Shown: positions 54,301 through 64,000 of the stretch, piece by piece | How positions within the stretch are numbered: position 1 is the stretch's first letter | How the letters are laid out: every line of letters begins with the position of its first letter | Assembly (NCBI GenBank): GCA_902601475.1 | Contig: CACKNK010000003.1 | Span: 1-64,000, forward strand | Source of the DNA: an uncultured SAR86 cluster bacterium | Lineage (GTDB): Bacteria > Pseudomonadota > Gammaproteobacteria > Magnimaribacterales > D2472 | Length of the DNA: 64,000 nucleotides | Reading direction: 5' to 3' | The notes under the pieces: model-generated | What the model was told of the DNA's origin: nothing | The model's database searches: none | Seen by the model: the letters and a program-made list of their open reading frames with translations, nothing else | Program-made: the position numbers and the translations under genes

Positions 54301-54678
54301 CTAATTTGAGGAAATAGAATTCTGGTCCCAAAATGCTCTGCCAGAAATAATTTTTCCGGAGTCATTAATAACAAAGTGATCTACTATTGAAATATCCATT
54401 GAAGTTCCGTTCGATTCATTCCTTACTTTCATAATAGCTTTTAATATACCCTCATTCCCACAAACAACGTAACTAACATCTGAAGGAGTGATTGTCATTC
54501 CCTCTGCATGAGCAAAATCCCAAAAATTACCAATGGCGTCAATTCCCTTGCATGGATCTGTTCCAACGGGATCTTCAAATATGGCATTTGAATCCCATAG
54601 CTCTATGAACAAATTTTTTTCATTTTTTGTGTACGCTTCAACATAACCTTCCATTGCTGCTCTTGTTTTATCTTCCAT
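54301..54678 (-). CDS. NTF2/SnoaL-like protein A
   Basis: A small (125-residue) cone-shaped NTF2-fold protein: YVEAYTKNEKNLFIELWDSNAIFEDPVGTDPCKG (first half) matches the SnoaL/ketosteroid-isomerase superfamily, and SIVDHFVINDSGKIISGRAFWD the last strands. Members are isomerases, dehydratases or lyases. It is 2 bp behind a second NTF2-like gene and the SDR/KstD-like genes, so it may act on a cyclic or steroid-like ketone; this is inference. Confidence 0.75.
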   Translation of the reverse strand: MEDKTRAAMEGYVEAYTKNEKNLFIELWDSNAIFEDPVGTDPCKGIDAIGNFWDFAHAEGMTITPSDVSYVVCGNEGILKAIMKVRNESNGTSMDISIVDHFVINDSGKIISGRAFWDQNSISSN

Positions 54679-54680
54679 AA

Positions 54681-55175
54681 TTATTTATCCAGTTTCATGC
54701 CATGTTTGGCTAAATGATTTAAAGTAAATTTTTGATCCTTATCTATAGGGGTCACTGATTCAATAATTCTATCGTATTCAGAAAAATTTATTCGCCACCC
54801 CTCCTCTGTCTTAACATACTTATCTTTATATAAAGCCGTTCCTTGAGTTAAAGCATTTTCATTAAAGTTATAAAAAATATCCTGGAGATACCAAATTCCA
54901 CTTGCATTTACATCATCATGAATTGAAATTTCAGGATGGTGACCAGTATGCATGGCTGCGGTTTCACTATGAAATGAGTATTTTAAAGATTGAATAATCT
55001 CTTTTTTACCACTGGCCTCCCATACATATGTTCCTCCGCGATAATCAACCGTAATATCATCAGTAAATACGCTGTCTAATAAACCATGATCAGCCATATC
55101 AATAGCTCTAAAATATCTATGTTTTAACTGTTTAATCATCTCGATATCGTGAAGCTCTTGGATTAGTTCATTCAT
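54681..55175 (-). CDS. NTF2/SnoaL-like protein B
   Basis: A 164-residue NTF2-fold protein: HDIEMIKQLKHRYFRAIDMADHGLLDSVFTDD followed by VDYRGG is typical of the SnoaL_4 / bile-acid dehydratase-like branch, with HTGHHPEISIHDD and SGIWYLQDIFYN after it. The His in GHHPEI could be catalytic. It lies between NTF2-like A and the SDR, with gaps of a few bases, in an apparent catabolic operon. Confidence 0.75.
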   Translation of the reverse strand: MNELIQELHDIEMIKQLKHRYFRAIDMADHGLLDSVFTDDITVDYRGGTYVWEASGKKEIIQSLKYSFHSETAAMHTGHHPEISIHDDVNASGIWYLQDIFYNFNENALTQGTALYKDKYVKTEEGWRINFSEYDRIIESVTPIDKDQKFTLNHLAKHGMKLDK

Positions 55176-55182
55176 TTATTAT

Positions 55183-55938
55183 TTACCTCAAATAAGCTTG
55201 GCCGCCATCTAACATAATAGTTGATCCTGTGATGTAATTCATTCCATCTGAGACAAGCTGACAAACTGACTCTCCAATATCATTTTCACAATCACCAATT
55301 CTCTTAAGAGGAATCGTTTCAATGAATTCATTAGCTTCTTCAGGCCTCTCATCAACCCACCACTGCATGCCAACAGAGTTTGCTAAAGGCATGATGGTGT
55401 TCACCCTTATATTATCTTTGCCCCATTCTACAGCTGCAGCCCTAGTTAGCGATCGAATCGCTTCTTTAACTGCTGCATAAGCACCATATCCCGATGAGTC
55501 AGGTCTTAGAGCTGAAGAGCTCGCGAGATTAATAATAGCTCCATCACCTTTTAAATCTTCATAAAATAGTTTCATTAATCTAAATGTAGCAAGAGGACCT
55601 GATTCCCAACCTGCATTAATTGCTTCATCAGTTACATCTAAAATGCTACCCAAAGGTACCTCTTGCGCGTTATTAATCAAAACATTAATTGAACCAAAAT
55701 TATTTTTTATTTCTACTTGTGCGTGACTAATTGAATTAGAATCTTTAACGTCGCATTCTAATGGTAAGGTTACGAAACCAGCTTCGTTAAGCTTTGAAGA
55801 TTCATTCTTAACTTTTGAAAATGTTCGCCCAAGCATTGCAACCTTCGCACCTTTTTTGGCCATTGCTGTTGCTATCCCCAAACCGACACCTTGTCCTGCG
55901 CCAGTAACAACTGCAGTCTTTGAAGATAAATCTATCAA
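55183..55938 (-). CDS. SDR-family oxidoreductase
   Basis: Classical SDR with cofactor loop AVVTGAGQGVGLGIATAM, NVLINNAQEVPLGSILD and catalytic YAAVK in GYGAYAAVKEAIRSLTRA, ending NYITGSTIMLDGGQAY. The track start at 56052 runs into the upstream flavoprotein gene; I prefer TTG at 55938 (reads MIDLSSKTAVV), which overlaps that gene's stop as TTGA and gives a normal 251 residues. It is probably coupled to the KstD-like gene. The substrate is probably a hydroxy or keto group on a cyclic compound. Confidence 0.82.
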   Translation of the reverse strand: MIDLSSKTAVVTGAGQGVGLGIATAMAKKGAKVAMLGRTFSKVKNESSKLNEAGFVTLPLECDVKDSNSISHAQVEIKNNFGSINVLINNAQEVPLGSILDVTDEAINAGWESGPLATFRLMKLFYEDLKGDGAIINLASSSALRPDSSGYGAYAAVKEAIRSLTRAAAVEWGKDNIRVNTIMPLANSVGMQWWVDERPEEANEFIETIPLKRIGDCENDIGESVCQLVSDGMNYITGSTIMLDGGQAYLR

Positions 55939-57650
55939 AAGTTTGCGCCCGTAATATCTTTTGCAGCTAAGTATCCAAATGTCATCGCAGGCCCAAGTGT
56001 TGAGCCAGGACCAGGATATTTTGGCAGCAATGCTGTAGTGCAGTTGCCGCATGCGTATAGACCTTTTATGGGTTGATTAAAGGTATCTAGAACTCTTGCA
56101 TGAGTATCTATCACTAAGCCTCCTGCAGTTCCCATTTCTCCTGGATATAAAACCATACAATAGAATGGACCTTCGCTTAAGGGTGCCAAGCATGGATTGG
56201 GTTTAACTGAAGGATCGCCGTAATATCTGTCGTAGGCATCATCACCTCTTTGGAAATCTAAATCCTTGCCAGTCTTACTGTATTCATTTACTTTGACTTG
56301 AGTTTCGAGGAGTCCTTTTGCATCAATGCCAACTATTTCAGCAAGCTCTTCTAGAGTATCAGCTTTAGATAGAAAAGATGGATCCCACCACTCTTTTGGT
56401 ACTCTGGAATCAGGCTGCATTGAAGCTTGGAGTAAAGGACCACAGGGTCTATTTTTTCTGAAATTACTATCAAAAATCATATAGCAAGGAGCACAAGGAT
56501 TACCTTTTTCATACTCATCAAACATATCTGTTACAAAACTTACATAATTCTGGGATTCGTTTGAAAATCGATGGCCGTTTTTATTAACTGTATAGTTTCC
56601 GGGAACAGATTTATCTACTATTGATAGCCATCCTTTCTCGTGGCCAGGTATATTCATGGTTGTAGTCCACCACCCAGCATCCATCTGATGAAGAGCTACA
56701 TTCAGACCTTTGGTTGCTGAAATTGCGTCACCAGTATTGTGAATATTTGCTGCGCTCCAGGCTGTATCTGTTGGTTTAGGTAAATATTTTTCTCTAAGTG
56801 TTTGGTTTTTTTCAAAACCACCAGATGCAAGAATCACTCCTTTATTGGCTTTAATTTTAATTGTTTCATTATTTTGAAGAGCAATAATTCCTTCCACCTT
56901 ACCATTCTCATGTATCAAATCAGTCATAGAGGTATTACGCCAAATTGGAATATCGCGATCCTTGCATGAAAGGAGCAACCTAGCTATGCCTGCATTTCCC
57001 ATAGTTAATCGTCTATCCCTCCAACCATGAATAAAGCGCATTGGAATATCTAAAATATACTTGGTGAAAAGTTTTGCGAAAAGTGTTTTCCATCCGGGTA
57101 ATGCCCCAAGTAATAATTGACCTTCTACTTGGGTAAAGTTCATATTTATTGGACCCATGGTGAATGCTGTTTGTGGGTGTTGCCCTCTTAAATATTTAAA
57201 GTCATCTCCTAATTCTGTTCCCTTAATGGGTTCAGGCTCCATTGATCTATTGCCCTCCTTGCCACCAGGATTATCTGGAAAGTAGTCGGGATAATGGGGA
57301 AGGTTCCTGTATTTAACTCTCGAGTTCTCATGAAGATAGTCAACCATTCTTGGGCCTTGTTCAATGTATGTCTCAATTAAGTCATTATTAATCTTCCCCT
57401 CAGGTGAAACGCTTTGAATGTAATTTCTAGCATCTTCAACAGAATCATCTACATTTTCTGCTTTAGCATATCTATTATTGGGTATCCAAACTCCCCCACC
57501 AGAAGTAGCGCTTGTCCCACCAAATTGATTTGATTTTTCAATGACCAAAACCTTTGCTCCTCCATCATGCGAGCAAATTGCAGAAGTTAGCGCACCATTG
57601 CCAGAGCCTACAACAATTACGTCATACTCGTGATCATAGTTCGTTGACAT
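55935..57650 (-). CDS. FAD-dependent 3-oxosteroid 1-dehydrogenase-like flavoprotein
   Basis: A 571-residue flavoprotein of the fumarate-reductase/KstD superfamily. VIVVGSGNGALTSAICSHDG binds FAD, with KSNQFGGTSATSGGGVWIPN after it; near the end, LYACGNCTTALLPKYPGPGS and TLGPAMTFGYLAAKDITG match KstD-type C-termini. KstD introduces double bonds in the A ring of 3-ketosteroids. It is followed by SDR and two NTF2-like genes, a mix common in steroid and cyclic-ketone degradation. The true substrate may be a simpler cyclic enone precursor. Confidence 0.82.
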   Translation of the reverse strand: MSTNYDHEYDVIVVGSGNGALTSAICSHDGGAKVLVIEKSNQFGGTSATSGGGVWIPNNRYAKAENVDDSVEDARNYIQSVSPEGKINNDLIETYIEQGPRMVDYLHENSRVKYRNLPHYPDYFPDNPGGKEGNRSMEPEPIKGTELGDDFKYLRGQHPQTAFTMGPINMNFTQVEGQLLLGALPGWKTLFAKLFTKYILDIPMRFIHGWRDRRLTMGNAGIARLLLSCKDRDIPIWRNTSMTDLIHENGKVEGIIALQNNETIKIKANKGVILASGGFEKNQTLREKYLPKPTDTAWSAANIHNTGDAISATKGLNVALHQMDAGWWTTTMNIPGHEKGWLSIVDKSVPGNYTVNKNGHRFSNESQNYVSFVTDMFDEYEKGNPCAPCYMIFDSNFRKNRPCGPLLQASMQPDSRVPKEWWDPSFLSKADTLEELAEIVGIDAKGLLETQVKVNEYSKTGKDLDFQRGDDAYDRYYGDPSVKPNPCLAPLSEGPFYCMVLYPGEMGTAGGLVIDTHARVLDTFNQPIKGLYACGNCTTALLPKYPGPGSTLGPAMTFGYLAAKDITGANF

Positions 57651-57699: not shown

Positions 57700-58833
57700 A
57701 TGAAAACTAAATTAGCCGAGAAATTAGGTATTGAATATCCAATTTTCGCTTTTACGCATTGTAGAGATGTAGTAGTCGCCGTAAGCAAAGCCGGAGGAAT
57801 TGGCGTCCTTGGAGCCGTTGGTTTTTCTCCAGAACAACTAAAGGAGGAGCTCGACTGGATTGATGCACATATTGGTGACTATCCTTACGGTGTTGATACC
57901 GTGATTCCGCAAAAATATGAGGGCATGGATAATAAAGACCCTGAAGAACTTCTTGAGCAACTCAAAGCCTTAGTTCCTGATGAACATAAGCAATTTGCTG
58001 AAAACCTTTTACAAGAAGCGGGTGTTCCTGAAGCAGATGTATCAAATGGTCCAGATGGTGGATTGCTTGGATGGACAGAGGCTACAGCTGGGCCACAAAT
58101 AGAAGAAGCACTAAAAAGAAAAAACGTAAAGCTTATCGCCAATGCACTGGGGACACCACCAGCAGACATTATTAAAAAGATTCAAGATAAAGGAATCCTT
58201 ATCGGAGCTTTGTGTGGAAAAATTAAGCAGGCTAAAGCTCATAAAGAAGCTGGATTAGATTTTATTATTGCTCAAGGTGGTGAAGGTGGGGGTCACACAG
58301 GAGAGATAGGAAGTATTGTTTTGTGGCCTCAAATAATAGATGCGGTGGGTGATTTACCTGTTCTTGCAGCTGGAGGTATTGGTAACGGAAGACAAATGGC
58401 GGCTGCTTTAGCAATGGGGGCACAGGGAGTTTGGGCAGGATCGCTATGGTTGACTGTTGAGGAAGCGATGACTCAACCGGCACAAAAAGATTCGTATCTG
58501 AATGCTAGTAGTGAGGATACTATTCGAAGCAGAGCATGGACTGGAAAACCAGCAAGAATGCTTAAAAATAAATGGACTGAGGCTTGGGAAAGTGATGACA
58601 CTCCTGATCCCCTACCCATGCCATTGCAAGGAATGGTAACTTTTGATGCCATTAGAAGGACCGCCATGTATGCAGATAAAGGAAGTGCTCAAGATGTATC
58701 ATTTAATGCAGCTGGCCAAGTAATTGGTCAAATAAATGAGGTTGAATCTGTAAAAAACGTTATTTTTAGATTAGTTAATGAGTACGTCGATACCCTCGAC
58801 AACCTTAACAGCACTATGCCAAAAATAGACTAA
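57700..58833 (+). CDS. nitronate monooxygenase (2-nitropropane dioxygenase family)
   Basis: FMN-dependent TIM-barrel enzyme. KLGIEYPIFAFTHCRDVVVAVSKAGGIGVLG opens it, FIIAQGGEGGGHTGEIGSIV carries the catalytic-region His, and VLAAGGIGNGRQMAAALAMGAQGVWAGSLW binds the FMN phosphate. The 377 residues are typical. Members oxidise nitronates, but many homologues act in fatty-acid or ring-ketone metabolism. It is divergent from the KstD-like gene, so it may belong to the same catabolic module. Confidence 0.85.
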   Translation: MKTKLAEKLGIEYPIFAFTHCRDVVVAVSKAGGIGVLGAVGFSPEQLKEELDWIDAHIGDYPYGVDTVIPQKYEGMDNKDPEELLEQLKALVPDEHKQFAENLLQEAGVPEADVSNGPDGGLLGWTEATAGPQIEEALKRKNVKLIANALGTPPADIIKKIQDKGILIGALCGKIKQAKAHKEAGLDFIIAQGGEGGGHTGEIGSIVLWPQIIDAVGDLPVLAAGGIGNGRQMAAALAMGAQGVWAGSLWLTVEEAMTQPAQKDSYLNASSEDTIRSRAWTGKPARMLKNKWTEAWESDDTPDPLPMPLQGMVTFDAIRRTAMYADKGSAQDVSFNAAGQVIGQINEVESVKNVIFRLVNEYVDTLDNLNSTMPKID

Positions 58834-60122
58834 TTATTGTAAATTTCGGAATAGTCTTGGACTAAATGAACAAAAGATTTTACTCCTGCATCTAAAGCAT
58901 CATCATCGACATAAAAATATGGTGAGTGATTTGTGAATGGGCTATCTTGATTTTCTGGATTGACACCAATAAAGAAATATAAACCAGGCACTTGTTGAGC
59001 AAAAAATGAGAAGTCCTCAGCTCCAGTTCTTGGAACAGGCATTTCAAAAAATTTTCCATTTGATGCGTTAGCCAGTGAAGGCATTAACTGCTTAGTTAAT
59101 TCAGGATCATTAATTGTCACAGGATAGCTTCCATAAGGAGCAAACTGTATTTCAACTTCTGCATTATGAGCTGATGCTACATTGGTGGCTACGGTTGTTA
59201 TCTCCTCATGAATTTTATCTCTATAGGATTCATCAAATGTTCTTATAGTCCCCTCCATAAAAACTTCATCAGGAATAATATTATTCCTTGTGCCTCCTTG
59301 AATAATACCAACAGTGATGACAGCCTGACTGTCTAAAATATTTAATCTTCTGCTAACAATTGTTTGCAATGTCGTTACTATGTCTGCGGCTGCAACCACC
59401 GGATCAATCCCTCCCCATGGTCGCGATCCATGTGTTTGTTTACCAAGGACTTTGATTCTAAATGCTTCGGATGAGGCCATCATTGGGCCTGGTTTTGTAA
59501 CAACTATTCCATGTGGAGCATTCGTGACATGCATGCCAAATATTACATCTGGTTTTTCTTCATCAAAAATACCCTCTTTAAGCATTAATTCAGCGCCACC
59601 CTCTTCACCCTCAGGTGATCCTTCCTCAGCAGGCTGAAATATGAGCATTATGTCGCCGTTAAGTTTGTCAGTGTTTTTCGATAGAAATTCAGCAACACCC
59701 AGTAAGACAGCCATGTGAGCATCATGACCACATGCATGCATCACTCCAACTTCTCTTCCTTGATAGGTTGTAACTTGTTTTGATGAAAAAGGTAAATTAA
59801 GTTTTTCCGTAACTGGCAATGCATCCATGTCAGCTCTTAAAGCAATTAATGGCCCTGGATTATCTCCTCTTATAAATGCTGTAAGCCCGGTAAAGGCAAT
59901 TCCAGAATTAACTTCCAAGCCTAATCCTTCTAACTTCTCTTTAATATACTCAGCTGTCTGGTATTCCCTATTTGATAGTTCAGGATATTCATGAAGATGA
60001 TGTCTCCATTCAACAACTTTTGTCATAACGCCTTGAATATCTTCATCGATTTGAGATTTAAGATCGTTGGCTACCAGATTAAAGGAAAGTAAACAAAATA
60101 TAAAAAGGAAGACATTTTTCAT
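58830..60122 (-). CDS. exported M20-family amidohydrolase
   Basis: A zinc-dependent aminoacylase/hippurate-hydrolase-type enzyme. A signal peptide (FLFIFCLLSFNLVAND) indicates export. MHACGHDAHMAVLLG and IFQPAEEGSPEGEEGG hold metal ligands, and RTGAEDFSFFAQQVPGLYFFIG the late His/Glu/Asp block; WRHHLHEYPELSNREYQTA is the usual start. The 430 residues match the family. It overlaps the end of the nitronate monooxygenase gene by 4 bp on the opposite strand. It likely cleaves N-acyl amino acids in the periplasm. Confidence 0.9.
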   Translation of the reverse strand: MKNVFLFIFCLLSFNLVANDLKSQIDEDIQGVMTKVVEWRHHLHEYPELSNREYQTAEYIKEKLEGLGLEVNSGIAFTGLTAFIRGDNPGPLIALRADMDALPVTEKLNLPFSSKQVTTYQGREVGVMHACGHDAHMAVLLGVAEFLSKNTDKLNGDIMLIFQPAEEGSPEGEEGGAELMLKEGIFDEEKPDVIFGMHVTNAPHGIVVTKPGPMMASSEAFRIKVLGKQTHGSRPWGGIDPVVAAADIVTTLQTIVSRRLNILDSQAVITVGIIQGGTRNNIIPDEVFMEGTIRTFDESYRDKIHEEITTVATNVASAHNAEVEIQFAPYGSYPVTINDPELTKQLMPSLANASNGKFFEMPVPRTGAEDFSFFAQQVPGLYFFIGVNPENQDSPFTNHSPYFYVDDDALDAGVKSFVHLVQDYSEIYNN

Positions 60123-60124
60123 TA

Positions 60125-61003
60125 TTAACTCCTACTAACAAATCTTGGAAATAGCCTTGGGGTAGAAGATTCGTAATCAATAAAGTCACTTCTTCTTTCA
60201 CGAGACCTCTTATCCATCATATCTATTGAGGTAATTCCTATAAGTATATACATAACAAGGGTACCTATTATTGACCATAAAAAATCAAATGAGTTCCCAA
60301 GGGCAAAAATAAAACCACCAAACCAAAATAGTATTTCACCCAAATAATTTGGATGTCGGGAATAACTCCACAACCCTTTAGTCATTGTTTTACCCTGATT
60401 GGATGGATTTTGTCTAAAGTTATACATCTGCTGATCAGAGATAATCTGCAATAAAACAGCACCAAAGATTATGATTGCGGCAGCAATATCGAAATTATTA
60501 ATTTCTCCTGAGCTGTAATAGACAACAAAACAAAATGGTAATGTGGCAACGAATACGCATAAAGTTGGGACTAAATGTATAAAAAGAAAATCTACCAGAG
60601 CATACTGAACAGAGGAATTAGTCCTACCCTTCATCATGACATATCGCCAGTCTTCATGAGAAAACCCATCCCATGATCTTACCCAGTTGTAAGTTAAACG
60701 AATTGCCCAGAACAGAACGCAAACAAACATTAAAAATGCTCTTGATAAGCTTGGGTCAGCATCCACGTCCATCCAAACTAAAAGTATTAAGAACGGGGGA
60801 ATTACAGACCAATATGCATCATACCAACTGGAGTTTCTAAAAATATTGCTGCATATGTAAATAAAAATTGTTCCCACAAAATCAACAATCAGTAGTCTGA
60901 GCCAAATATTTGTTTCCTGGAAAAGAGACCACGACAAATCCATCAAATAAAAGCAGATGATGTAGCCAACCAATACAACCATTAAATCTCTAAACTTGAT
61001 CAT
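60125..61003 (-). CDS. DUF1295 / steroid 5-alpha-reductase-like membrane protein
   Basis: A 292-residue polytopic membrane protein with about eight hydrophobic segments. The C-terminal block MTKGLWSYSRHPNYLGEILFWFGGF (short excerpt SYSRHPNYLGE) is the cofactor-binding motif of the DUF1295/steroid-5-alpha-reductase superfamily; NWVRSWDGFSHEDWRY is also characteristic. Known relatives reduce lipid or sterol double bonds with NADPH. Its start overlaps the fbiC stop by one base, so it is in the F420 operon; a deazaflavin link is possible but unproven. Confidence 0.8.
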   Translation of the reverse strand: MIKFRDLMVVLVGYIICFYLMDLSWSLFQETNIWLRLLIVDFVGTIFIYICSNIFRNSSWYDAYWSVIPPFLILLVWMDVDADPSLSRAFLMFVCVLFWAIRLTYNWVRSWDGFSHEDWRYVMMKGRTNSSVQYALVDFLFIHLVPTLCVFVATLPFCFVVYYSSGEINNFDIAAAIIIFGAVLLQIISDQQMYNFRQNPSNQGKTMTKGLWSYSRHPNYLGEILFWFGGFIFALGNSFDFLWSIIGTLVMYILIGITSIDMMDKRSRERRSDFIDYESSTPRLFPRFVSRS

Positions 61004-63387
61004 TAAATTCTTGCCTCATTATGAAAATCATTAATTGATTTCATAGGTATTTCATTTTGATTATTTAAGTTCGATCTCTTAGAAGATGAAATTGTTTCAT
61101 AATTTGTATTTCTCCTCACAAGCTTTAAATTAAGTTCCTCTGTTAATAATTGGATTTTTCCTAAATCGAGTTCCTGTCCATGATTTGCCCCTGCAGATCT
61201 CGTGATTGTCTCATCCATTAATATCCCGCCAACATCATTAATTCCTGAAGAGAGAAGTTTTCTTAAACCCTCGTATCCCATCTTAACCCATGACCCCTGA
61301 ATGTTAGGTATATGGTCTTGAAAAAATATTCTTGAAATGGAGTGCATGAGAATTGCTTCTCTGAAAGTTGGTCCTGATCTTGATTGCCCCCTCAAACTCA
61401 TTGGGGCTTCATGTGCAACAAATGGTAAAGGAACAAATTCTGTAAACCCTCCAGATTTAATTTGCTGATTTTTGATATTTATTAAATGTTCGGCAATATG
61501 ATCATAGGTTTCAACATGACCGAACATAATTGTAGCTGTAGAATTGAGTCCACATGAGTGTGCTGCATCCATAACAGAAAGCCACTCCGCTGTATTTAAC
61601 TTGTCTGGACAAATAATATTCCTTACATCATCATGCAAAATCTCAGCTGCGGTTCCGGGAAGAGAGTTTAGACCAGCCTCTTTAAGAATGGGCAGATATT
61701 CTTCAAGAGTTAAGCCAAGAGTTTGAGCGCCTTGGAATATTTCCAAGGGACTGAATGCATGTATGTGAATATCAGGAGATACTTTACGAATAGCCTTAAT
61801 AACATCTAGATAATAGTTGCCATCAAACTTTGGATGAATGCCACCCTGAAGGCATACCTCTGTTGCCCCCCTTCTGATTGCCTCCCTAACCCTGTTTTGA
61901 ATTTCCTCAAGCTCAAGCAAGTATGAAGCTCCTCGTAACTTTTTTGCACCAGTGCTCTTAGAAAAGGCACAGAACGAGCAACTGTAAACACAAATATTTG
62001 TATAGTTAATATTTCTATTAACAACATAAGTAATGTTATTTCCATTTAGTTGAGAACGTATTTCGTCTGCAGCTTTTGTAATATATTCAAAGCTTTTACC
62101 CCGAGCATTGAAAAGCTGAGGAATTGAAGAATGTGGATTATCTGCAATTTTATTAATTAGCTTTCTAGTTTGTCCAACTTCACCGGTTGGAAGAATATCT
62201 GGTACCTCAGTAGATCTTCCACTCTCCCAGCCATCATCTCTAAGCAAACCGCTACCATCAGTTATTTTTTGTATTTTTGATCTAATTTTTTTGGCCATAA
62301 ATAAGTTATTTGCTTTGAGAACTTTTGGCGCAATAGTTGATCTTGGAAGCAAGATTTGTTCAGAATTATTAGAAATTTTTTCTAGTTTCTCAATTTCTGG
62401 CCATGGAGCCTCTGGATTAACGTGGTCGATAGTAACTGGTGATATTCCACCAAAATCATCAATGCCAGATTTTGTAAGACAAGATAAATGCTTTTGATTT
62501 AAATTTGGAGGAACTTGAATTGATATTTGATTACTCAAAATCTTCCTAGCCATCACGATTGTCCACTGCAGCTCTTCAAAACTAGGTTCAGGGAAATCAG
62601 ACATTAAGGTATTTTTTTTTGGCTTAAAGTTCTGAATGATAACTTCTTGTATATTTCCATATCTATTGTGAATTTCATTTATGACCATTAAGGATTGGAT
62701 TCTCTCCTCTCTTGATTCACCTATCCCAATCAAAAGTCCAGTAGTAAATGGAATTTGCTGCTCGCCTGCATTGATAAACGTTTGTAATCTATATTCGGGA
62801 TCTTTATCAGGCGATCCAAAATGCGGCATACCTTTTTCTGATAACCTAGCTGAATGAGTTTCTAACATTAGACCCATAGACCCTGAAACATCTTTTAGCT
62901 CCAAAATATCCTCTTGAGTAAGAGTGCCGACATTTAAGTGAGGAATTAATGAGCTATTATCAAGAATATGCTCTGCGGTCTTTTTGACATAATCCAAGGT
63001 AGTTTTAAAGCCATTAGCAGATAAATAGTCCCTTGCTGTTTTATACCTTAATTCAGGTTTATCACCGAGCGTAATAAGTGCTTCTTTGCATCCTTTCTCT
63101 TCACCATCCGTAACAACTTCTAAAACTTCATCCAGTGGCATGTATGGATTTACAATTTTTTTAGGAGTTTTGGCGAATGTGCAGTAATGACAAACATCTC
63201 TGCAAAGGAATGTTAATGGAAGAAAAACTTTTGGAGAGTAAGTAATAATATCTCCAAAAGCATCTTTTTTAGTTCTAAAAGATTTTTGTATTAAAGCATT
63301 GGATAATGGTGCTTTAGATAATTCTTTTGCTTCATCAAAGTTTATTAGGTCGTTAATTTTAAGATTTGATTTTTTATTAATTATCAT
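61003..63387 (-). CDS. fbiC: FbiC: fused CofG-CofH, 7,8-didemethyl-8-hydroxy-5-deazariboflavin (Fo) synthase
   Basis: Makes the deazaflavin Fo, the chromophore of coenzyme F420, from tyrosine and a ribityl-diaminouracil using two radical-SAM domains. The N-terminal half has the cluster motif C62-x3-C66-x2-C69 in LCRDVCHYCTFAKTP (CofG type); the C-terminal half has C466-x3-C470-x2-C473 in CVYSCSFCAFSKS (CofH type). FVPLPFVAHEAPM and SWVKMGYEGLRKLLSSGIND are later CofH blocks. The 794 residues are slightly shorter than mycobacterial FbiC. It overlaps cofC by 11 bp and the DUF1295 gene by one base. F420 genes are unusual in gammaproteobacteria. Confidence 0.93.
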   Translation of the reverse strand: MIINKKSNLKINDLINFDEAKELSKAPLSNALIQKSFRTKKDAFGDIITYSPKVFLPLTFLCRDVCHYCTFAKTPKKIVNPYMPLDEVLEVVTDGEEKGCKEALITLGDKPELRYKTARDYLSANGFKTTLDYVKKTAEHILDNSSLIPHLNVGTLTQEDILELKDVSGSMGLMLETHSARLSEKGMPHFGSPDKDPEYRLQTFINAGEQQIPFTTGLLIGIGESREERIQSLMVINEIHNRYGNIQEVIIQNFKPKKNTLMSDFPEPSFEELQWTIVMARKILSNQISIQVPPNLNQKHLSCLTKSGIDDFGGISPVTIDHVNPEAPWPEIEKLEKISNNSEQILLPRSTIAPKVLKANNLFMAKKIRSKIQKITDGSGLLRDDGWESGRSTEVPDILPTGEVGQTRKLINKIADNPHSSIPQLFNARGKSFEYITKAADEIRSQLNGNNITYVVNRNINYTNICVYSCSFCAFSKSTGAKKLRGASYLLELEEIQNRVREAIRRGATEVCLQGGIHPKFDGNYYLDVIKAIRKVSPDIHIHAFSPLEIFQGAQTLGLTLEEYLPILKEAGLNSLPGTAAEILHDDVRNIICPDKLNTAEWLSVMDAAHSCGLNSTATIMFGHVETYDHIAEHLINIKNQQIKSGGFTEFVPLPFVAHEAPMSLRGQSRSGPTFREAILMHSISRIFFQDHIPNIQGSWVKMGYEGLRKLLSSGINDVGGILMDETITRSAGANHGQELDLGKIQLLTEELNLKLVRRNTNYETISSSKRSNLNNQNEIPMKSINDFHNEARI

Positions 63388-63970
63388 TGTCTTTGAAAAG
63401 CTTATTTCTTTGTTCCAATGTTAACAAATCTAAGTCCTCAGATGTATCTAGATCAAAAGCAATATTTGAATTTTTAATAACAGTTAATTCTTGGTTAATA
63501 TTGGAGAAGTAATCAGTAAATTTTTTAAAACTATCTTTCCCAAAAAATAAATCATCTATTTTTTTAATAGGGAGGCCTAATGCATTGGTACCGGAGATAT
63601 GTCTATCCGGCACAATAAAAGGAATATTTTTATCAGCAAGTGAAATTAGCTCAGTTAAATCTGTACTAACAACAAGTGGTAAATCAGCATGCATGATGAT
63701 TACAAAATTCGCTTGGTGAGAGATCGAATTTATAGCCTCTCCCAATGCATCATTTAAAGCTGATTCAGTAAAGAATATTTCTGTGTTTTTAATTTTTAAG
63801 TCTTTGTCATCAGTAACGATAATTACCTTTTGATCTAGCTTTATAAAGTTCTGACTAAGGCTATTAATAAGGTTTTTAGAAGCGGTAATTCTTTGATTAT
63901 TTGAAAGTGAATTAGATAAACGATTTTTAGAGTTTTTAAATGCTTTAACTGGAATGAGAATGTTGATCAT
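63377..63970 (-). CDS. cofC: 2-phospho-L-lactate / phosphoenolpyruvate guanylyltransferase (CofC/FbiD)
   Basis: Activates a three-carbon phosphoacid with GTP for attachment to Fo in F420 synthesis. ILIPVKAFKNSKNRLSNSL is the nucleotidyltransferase start, with a basic loop; VIIMHADLPLVVSTDLTELI (HADLP in place of the frequent xxDLP) binds the metal, and SGTNALGLP and AFDLDTSEDLDLL are CofC blocks. The 197 residues match. Whether it uses 2-phospholactate, PEP or 3-phosphoglycerate cannot be read here. Its start codon overlaps the stop of another minus-strand gene at the window edge. Confidence 0.9.
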   Translation of the reverse strand: MINILIPVKAFKNSKNRLSNSLSNNQRITASKNLINSLSQNFIKLDQKVIIVTDDKDLKIKNTEIFFTESALNDALGEAINSISHQANFVIIMHADLPLVVSTDLTELISLADKNIPFIVPDRHISGTNALGLPIKKIDDLFFGKDSFKKFTDYFSNINQELTVIKNSNIAFDLDTSEDLDLLTLEQRNKLFKDNDN

Positions 63971-64000
63971 CTACTTAGATATTCAACTATTGACTTTGCT
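63967..64000 (-). CDS. C-terminal end of an upstream gene (cut by window edge)
   Basis: Read on the minus strand, the last 34 bases give ...AKSIVEYLSR and a TGA that overlaps the cofC ATG as ATGA. This is the usual spacing of operon neighbours, so the F420 unit continues beyond the window. A CofD- or CofE-type gene is a reasonable guess but ten residues are too few to tell. Confidence 0.55.
   Translation of the reverse strand, partial: AKSIVEYLSR

Follow-up and report, generated by a model that had tools for sequence, protein, structure and literature searches.

A complete coenzyme F420 biosynthesis operon in SAR86 bacteria and its co-occurrence with luciferase-like oxidoreductases

The stretch of DNA analyzed here (the window, 64,000 nucleotides) comprises C3:1-64000, the beginning of contig C3 of a SAR86 draft genome that totals 1.35 Mb in 22 contigs and is 81% complete. 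The window ends inside an operon for the biosynthesis of coenzyme F420. Gene calls and profile searches on contig C3 yielded the gene order npdG-cofE-cofD-cofC-fbiC-DUF1295 on the minus strand. The original prediction, made from the letters of the window, had rightly described the genome as gammaproteobacterial-looking and had placed four genes at its end, i.e. the DUF1295 gene, fbiC, cofC, and a gene coupled to the start of cofC. All four genes are real and their positions were correct. The coupled gene is cofD, which is cut at the window end, so that only its last few codons lie within. The suggested search beyond position 64,000 revealed that both cofD and cofE are present, together with npdG, and that these genes overlap or follow one another without a gap. 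The operon consists of the following genes:

60125..61003, minus strand: DUF1295 membrane protein, 292 aa (PF06966, 156.9 bits), the terminal operon gene in genomes of SAR86 family f1
61003..63387, minus strand: fbiC, fused CofG-CofH FO synthase, 794 aa (TIGR03550, TIGR03551, CX3CX2C motifs, tree)
63377..63970, minus strand: cofC, phospho-C3-acid guanylyltransferase, 197 aa (PF01983, residue comparison)
C3:63967-64890, minus strand (63967..64000, the 3' end, in the window): cofD, 307 aa (TIGR01819)
C3:64891-65709, minus strand, outside the window: cofE, 272 aa (TIGR01916)
C3:65651-66283, minus strand, outside the window: npdG (TIGR01915)

The start of cofE is ambiguous, as the listed TTG produces a 59-base overlap with npdG and no ATG occurs before residue 33.

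The encoded proteins were compared with family models. FbiC, one fused protein, has a CX3CX2C motif at residue 62 and another at residue 466, and passed the cut-offs for both CofG (TIGR03550, 473.9 versus 213) and CofH (TIGR03551, 509 versus 374), in agreement with the complete two-domain enzyme with both radical-SAM triads that had been proposed. The possibility had been raised that it might instead belong to the radical-SAM enzymes of menaquinone synthesis; it stayed below the cut-offs for MqnC (381 versus 428) and MqnE (312 versus 435), and it goes with CofG and CofH. The full-length bifunctional model NF006687 was narrowly missed (975 versus 1018). CofD (TIGR01819, 275.5 versus 257), CofE (TIGR01916, 277 versus 181), and NpdG (TIGR01915, 188 versus 150) all passed. 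The 197-aa protein fell narrowly short of the CofC equivalog TIGR03552 (99.3 versus 105 bits) and passed PF01983 (62 versus 22); it was named CofC because of its operon context and its conserved residues. The metal- and substrate-binding residues K9/K15, D96, T128, S147, D173, and D175 are invariant in nine of nine SAR86 CofC proteins and align with those of solved CofC structures, the alignment with FbiD ending before D173/D175. A second CofD-family match at C1:291629 was not accepted as CofD, since PF01933 also matched 10 of 14 control genomes, including E. coli.

The distribution of the operon was surveyed in 199 genomes of the SAR86 order, which represent 22 genera. CofG was matched in 34 genomes, in 31 of them above the cut-off. 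The FbiC-positive genera are g1, g6, and g8 of family f1 and g11, g17, and g21 of family f2. At every locus read from these six genera the order npdG-cofE-cofD-cofC-fbiC is kept, with extra genes inserted in family f2. The best FbiC matches among named genomes were SAR86 AG-447-K20 (98%), SAR86 AH-324-F14 (95%), and Gammaproteobacteria bacterium TMED104 (93%); the next best was an Acidimicrobiales genome with 46% identity. No FbiC was found in viral contigs. Judged from these sequences, the F420 operon is complete, real, and long-established in SAR86, a group for which this known pathway is newly recorded. The full gene set together with npdG in one operon also supports the earlier proposal that the organism makes a deazaflavin cofactor.

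In the pathway that we propose, FbiC would make FO from tyrosine and a ribityl-uracil precursor, CofC would guanylate a phospho-C3 acid (2-phospholactate or phosphoenolpyruvate, PEP), CofD would join the guanylated acid to FO, CofE would add glutamates, and NpdG would reduce F420 with NADPH. F420H2 would then supply luciferase-like hydride transferases (LLHTs), the genes of which lie in other parts of the genome. To predict which F420 is made, CofC was subjected to a structure-guided comparison with the Mycetohabitans enzyme that uses 3-phosphoglycerate (3-PG), in which Ser (or Thr) at position 162 is diagnostic of 3-PG use (PMC8764529). The equivalent residue is Gly144, invariant in all nine SAR86 CofC proteins, and the positions M91 and C95, which accompany S162, are Leu in the CofC of this genome. 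With Gly in place of the diagnostic Ser, 2-phospholactate or PEP is predicted as substrate, and thus ordinary F420, not 3PG-F420. If PEP is used, a dehydro-F420 reductase would be needed. Only the F420_ligase domain was found in the 272-aa CofE, not the C-terminal nitroreductase domain of FbiB, and nitroreductases do not track FbiC. A nitroreductase was considered as the dedicated reductase; such proteins occur in 184 of the 199 genomes irrespective of FbiC and are therefore not a marker.

The original prediction had not been able to name client enzymes of F420. The genome, however, encodes six luciferase-like (PF00296) oxidoreductases, all outside the operon, five of which exceed F420-specific NCBIfam cut-offs (two TIGR03617, three TIGR03619). 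Their number varies with FbiC: the 34 FbiC-positive genomes have a mean of 5.2 and never fewer than two, whereas the FbiC-negative genomes have a mean of 0.36, with at most one in 158 of 165. Five of the seven exceptions with two or more LLHTs are incomplete (59-81%) members of the FbiC-positive genera g1 or g6; the other two are G053, with two LLHTs, and G021. Genome-level Fisher p-values for this association are inflated by relatedness, and the genus-level signal is that 6 of the 22 genera are FbiC-positive. In g11 and g21 of family f2, an LLHT gene that is 55% identical to L011 of this genome is located between cofC and fbiC. The six luciferase-like enzymes are thus probably the clients of F420. 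As for FDOR-type clients, the single PNPOx-family match in the genome is PdxH-like; other FDOR families were not searched. Overall, we consider it highly likely that SAR86 has a functional F420 pathway with LLHT clients.

Several genes point to the catabolism of polycyclic, steroid-like compounds as the process that the LLHTs would most likely serve, because the operon and the LLHTs occur in genera with KstD/Hsa-type ring-degradation genes. A KstD-like gene lies downstream of the operon at a distance of about 2.5 kb, and a gene for a KshA-type Rieske protein was found at C3:73.7 kb. An hsaD/E/F/G-like meta-cleavage operon, a cluster that encodes an HsaD-like hydrolase, a hydratase, an aldolase, an acetaldehyde dehydrogenase, and a P450, is overlapped in its aldolase gene by one of the LLHT genes. 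Close KstD-like homologues were found in 34 and an HsaA-like gene in 28 of the 199 genomes, in both cases exclusively within the FbiC-positive genera. A link of F420 to steroid-ring catabolism is therefore plausible. Steroid pathways in SAR86 have been reported in an earlier comparative study (PMC4810484), and one SAR86 family has been described as having kstD, kshA, and hsa genes in a small number of its genera (Ramfelt et al. 2024, PMC11582366); F420 is mentioned in neither (0 occurrences in PMC11582366). A literature search for a characterized F420-dependent step in a proteobacterial steroid pathway found none. We know of no such step in any proteobacterial steroid pathway.

Some observations weigh against the proposed clients and the steroid link. 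The KstD-like and HsaA-like proteins stay below their equivalog cut-offs (NF005882, 528 versus 788; NF045629, 385.7 versus 450) and are for this reason called KstD-like and HsaA-like only. The sixth LLHT is under every F420 subfamily cut-off. The predicted LLHT fold, as revealed by a fold search, resembles F420 and FMN enzymes alike, so that the cofactor assignment rests on family membership and co-occurrence. G021 (family f2, g17, 93% complete) has 10 LLHTs and no CofG match, though other g17 genomes have FbiC; gene loss or a gap in the assembly may account for this. Lastly, a close KstD is missing from g17 in spite of its fbiC and many LLHTs; the association of F420 with ring genes is therefore strong, not universal. 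Taken together, we propose only tentatively, and with less than even confidence, that F420H2-dependent LLHTs perform the reductive steps of polycyclic, steroid-like ring catabolism in SAR86.

The strongest competing explanation is that F420, although made and used, serves detoxification or some other redox function unconnected with steroid-like rings, and that it co-occurs with KstD/Hsa-type genes because the few genera concerned are related by descent. Just six FbiC-positive genera in two families imply few independent events, many xenobiotics are substrates of F420 reductases (PMC8498797), and g17 combines FbiC and LLHTs with the lack of a close KstD. It does not readily account for the KstD-like gene being linked to the operon both in f1 and in f2 g21, for the LLHT linked with the meta-cleavage operon, or for the parallel arrangement on sphingomonad plasmids. 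In our judgment it could equally well prove right or wrong.

A role of FO or F420 mainly as antenna chromophore of a photolyase, and not as redox cofactor, is improbable. That FO can serve as a chromophore is established (review: PMC8498797), and a photolyase-related DPRP protein (507 aa, PF04244, 180 bits) is encoded at C11:1241-2764 on the minus strand (L147:1241-2764), about 5 kb from one luciferase-like gene; it could in principle use a deazaflavin antenna. FO requires FbiC alone, yet cofC, cofD, cofE, and npdG have been kept in one operon across six genera, and the LLHT number tracks FbiC.

The origin of the operon was analyzed with a tree of 46 FbiC sequences, from which MqnC/MqnE rows were left out. 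The SAR86 proteins form a single clade (100/98), which splits into a branch of family f1 and one of family f2. They group with two genomes of the gammaproteobacterial family f238 (95/89) and lie within the proteobacterial fused-FbiC clade (99/96), apart from the included actinobacterial and archaeal sequences. The search for a donor lineage that had been suggested thus led to other Gammaproteobacteria, and from this tree an actinobacterial or archaeal donor is not needed. F420 is best known in Actinomycetota and archaea, and FbiC is rare among the Pseudomonadota sampled, with 4 of 399 over the cut-off. Even so, a recent transfer from either group is very unlikely, given one clade over two families beside f238 and a G+C content of the operon (0.349) that can be taken as equal to that of the window (0.345). 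In a cross-family sample of 369 Gammaproteobacteria, 15, this genome among them, exceeded the CofG cut-off, and F420 synthesis is therefore patchy in this class and not unique to SAR86. Within SAR86, the pathway may have been lost from most genera or exchanged between some. Two further Gammaproteobacteria, G356 (L150) and G873 (L182), have separate cofG and cofH genes and belong to another FbiC clade with Leisingera and Variovorax, so that the class contains at least two F420 lineages. Contamination or misbinning, conceivable for a 22-contig draft genome, has a negligible probability because synteny of the operon extends over six genera from two families, with the same neighbors in the single-contig genome G030, the SAR86 AG-447-K20 and AH-324-F14 records, and many further SAR86 genomes.

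The DUF1295 protein had been proposed to be either a user of F420 or a lipid reductase carried along. The former is unlikely: homologues occur in 115 of the 199 genomes irrespective of FbiC, and the protein was therefore rejected as a marker of F420 use. The gene is operon-linked in f1 and in g11 and g21 of f2. The likeness to reductases stood up in a weak form, as the structural model is weakly similar to delta14-sterol reductase (4quv, E 0.006) and steroid 5-alpha-reductase (7c83, E 0.03), and the protein may act on sterol-like substrates with NADPH. A clean empty site was not found, the DUF1295 homologues of FbiC-negative genomes being located in other neighborhoods.

Further genes of the window lie downstream of the operon:

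58830..60122, minus strand: M20 amidohydrolase, 430 aa (PF01546, 144 bits), syntenic neighbor in f1
57700..58833, plus strand: nitronate-monooxygenase-family flavoprotein, 377 aa (PF03060, 167.6 bits), syntenic neighbor in f1
55935..57650, minus strand: KstD-like FAD enzyme, 571 aa (NF005882, 528 bits, under the cut-off of 788)
55183..56052, minus strand: short-chain dehydrogenase/reductase (SDR), overlapping the KstD-like gene
54301..55175, minus strand: a pair of SnoaL/NTF2-like genes located downstream of the SDR gene, with products of 125 and 164 aa that exceed the PF12680 and PF13577 cut-offs

The start of the SDR gene is probably internal, giving about 251 aa as in AH-324-F14. An aldehyde dehydrogenase and APH-family kinase pair at C3:67150-69732 on the minus strand (L003:17151-19733) adjoins the F420 operon across the f1 genera. 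In f2 g17 and g21 a protein judged by eye to be hydrolase-like is encoded between cofC and fbiC (L060:9772-10701 and L061:11018-11947, both minus strand).

The discussion of F420 has so far centered on archaea, on actinobacteria of the soil, and on certain alpha- and betaproteobacteria, and the word Gammaproteobacteria is absent from the main text of a 2021 review. SAR86 ranks among the most abundant groups of bacteria in the surface ocean, with an estimated 2-6% of the community (PMC11582366), and some of its lineages have a complete F420 gene set; the retention of this pathway in a part of these streamlined genomes implies a real use. The genera concerned are those with likely F420-using enzymes and, mostly, with genes for the breakdown of steroid-like rings. 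If the LLHTs indeed act on such rings, F420 would serve abundant bacteria of the surface ocean as a working cofactor in the degradation of lipid rings. The co-occurrence names candidate enzymes and substrates, making the role of F420 outside the actinobacteria testable.

Comparison with known systems revealed several parallels. The few SAR86 genera of one family with steroid genes (Ramfelt et al. 2024, PMC11582366) resemble the KstD/HsaA-like pattern described here; the family codes f1 and f2 are not matched to the family names of that study, which does not treat F420. The mycobacterial pathway (FbiA, FbiB, FbiC, FbiD) shares with SAR86 the fused FbiC as well as Gly and Leu at the FbiD-type CofC positions. 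In contrast, mycobacterial FbiB has a nitroreductase domain, whereas the SAR86 CofE is a stand-alone protein without it and nitroreductases do not follow FbiC. The 3PG-F420 pathway of Mycetohabitans also has separate CofC, CofD, and CofE proteins in a proteobacterium, but its CofC has S162 where all nine aligned SAR86 proteins have Gly (PMC8764529). On the Sphingobium plasmids L123 and L132 fbiC is present, and cofC, cofD, cofE, and npdG were not found within the stretch examined; on L123, fbiC adjoins citryl-CoA lyase and CoA-transferase genes. The Croceicoccus marinus plasmid pCME4A9I carries all F420 genes together with those for a TIGR03619 LLM and a KstD-like enzyme, and a pair of NTF2-family genes flanks the cluster, as two such genes also lie near the SAR86 operon. 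In Novosphingobium, too, plasmid-borne F420 genes have a TIGR03619 oxidoreductase and a KstD-like enzyme as neighbors. The Croceicoccus cluster also includes an ecdysteroid-kinase-like gene, which may be compared with the APH-family kinase beside the SAR86 operon. The order npdG-cofE-cofD-cofC-fbiC on a plasmid of Paraburkholderia sp. PGU19 is identical to that in SAR86. The FbiC proteins of PGU19 and Croceicoccus are about 51-52% identical to that of SAR86 and plasmid-borne, whereas the SAR86 operon is chromosomal, resides in a streamlined genome of 1.3-1.5 Mb, and has the DUF1295 gene appended.

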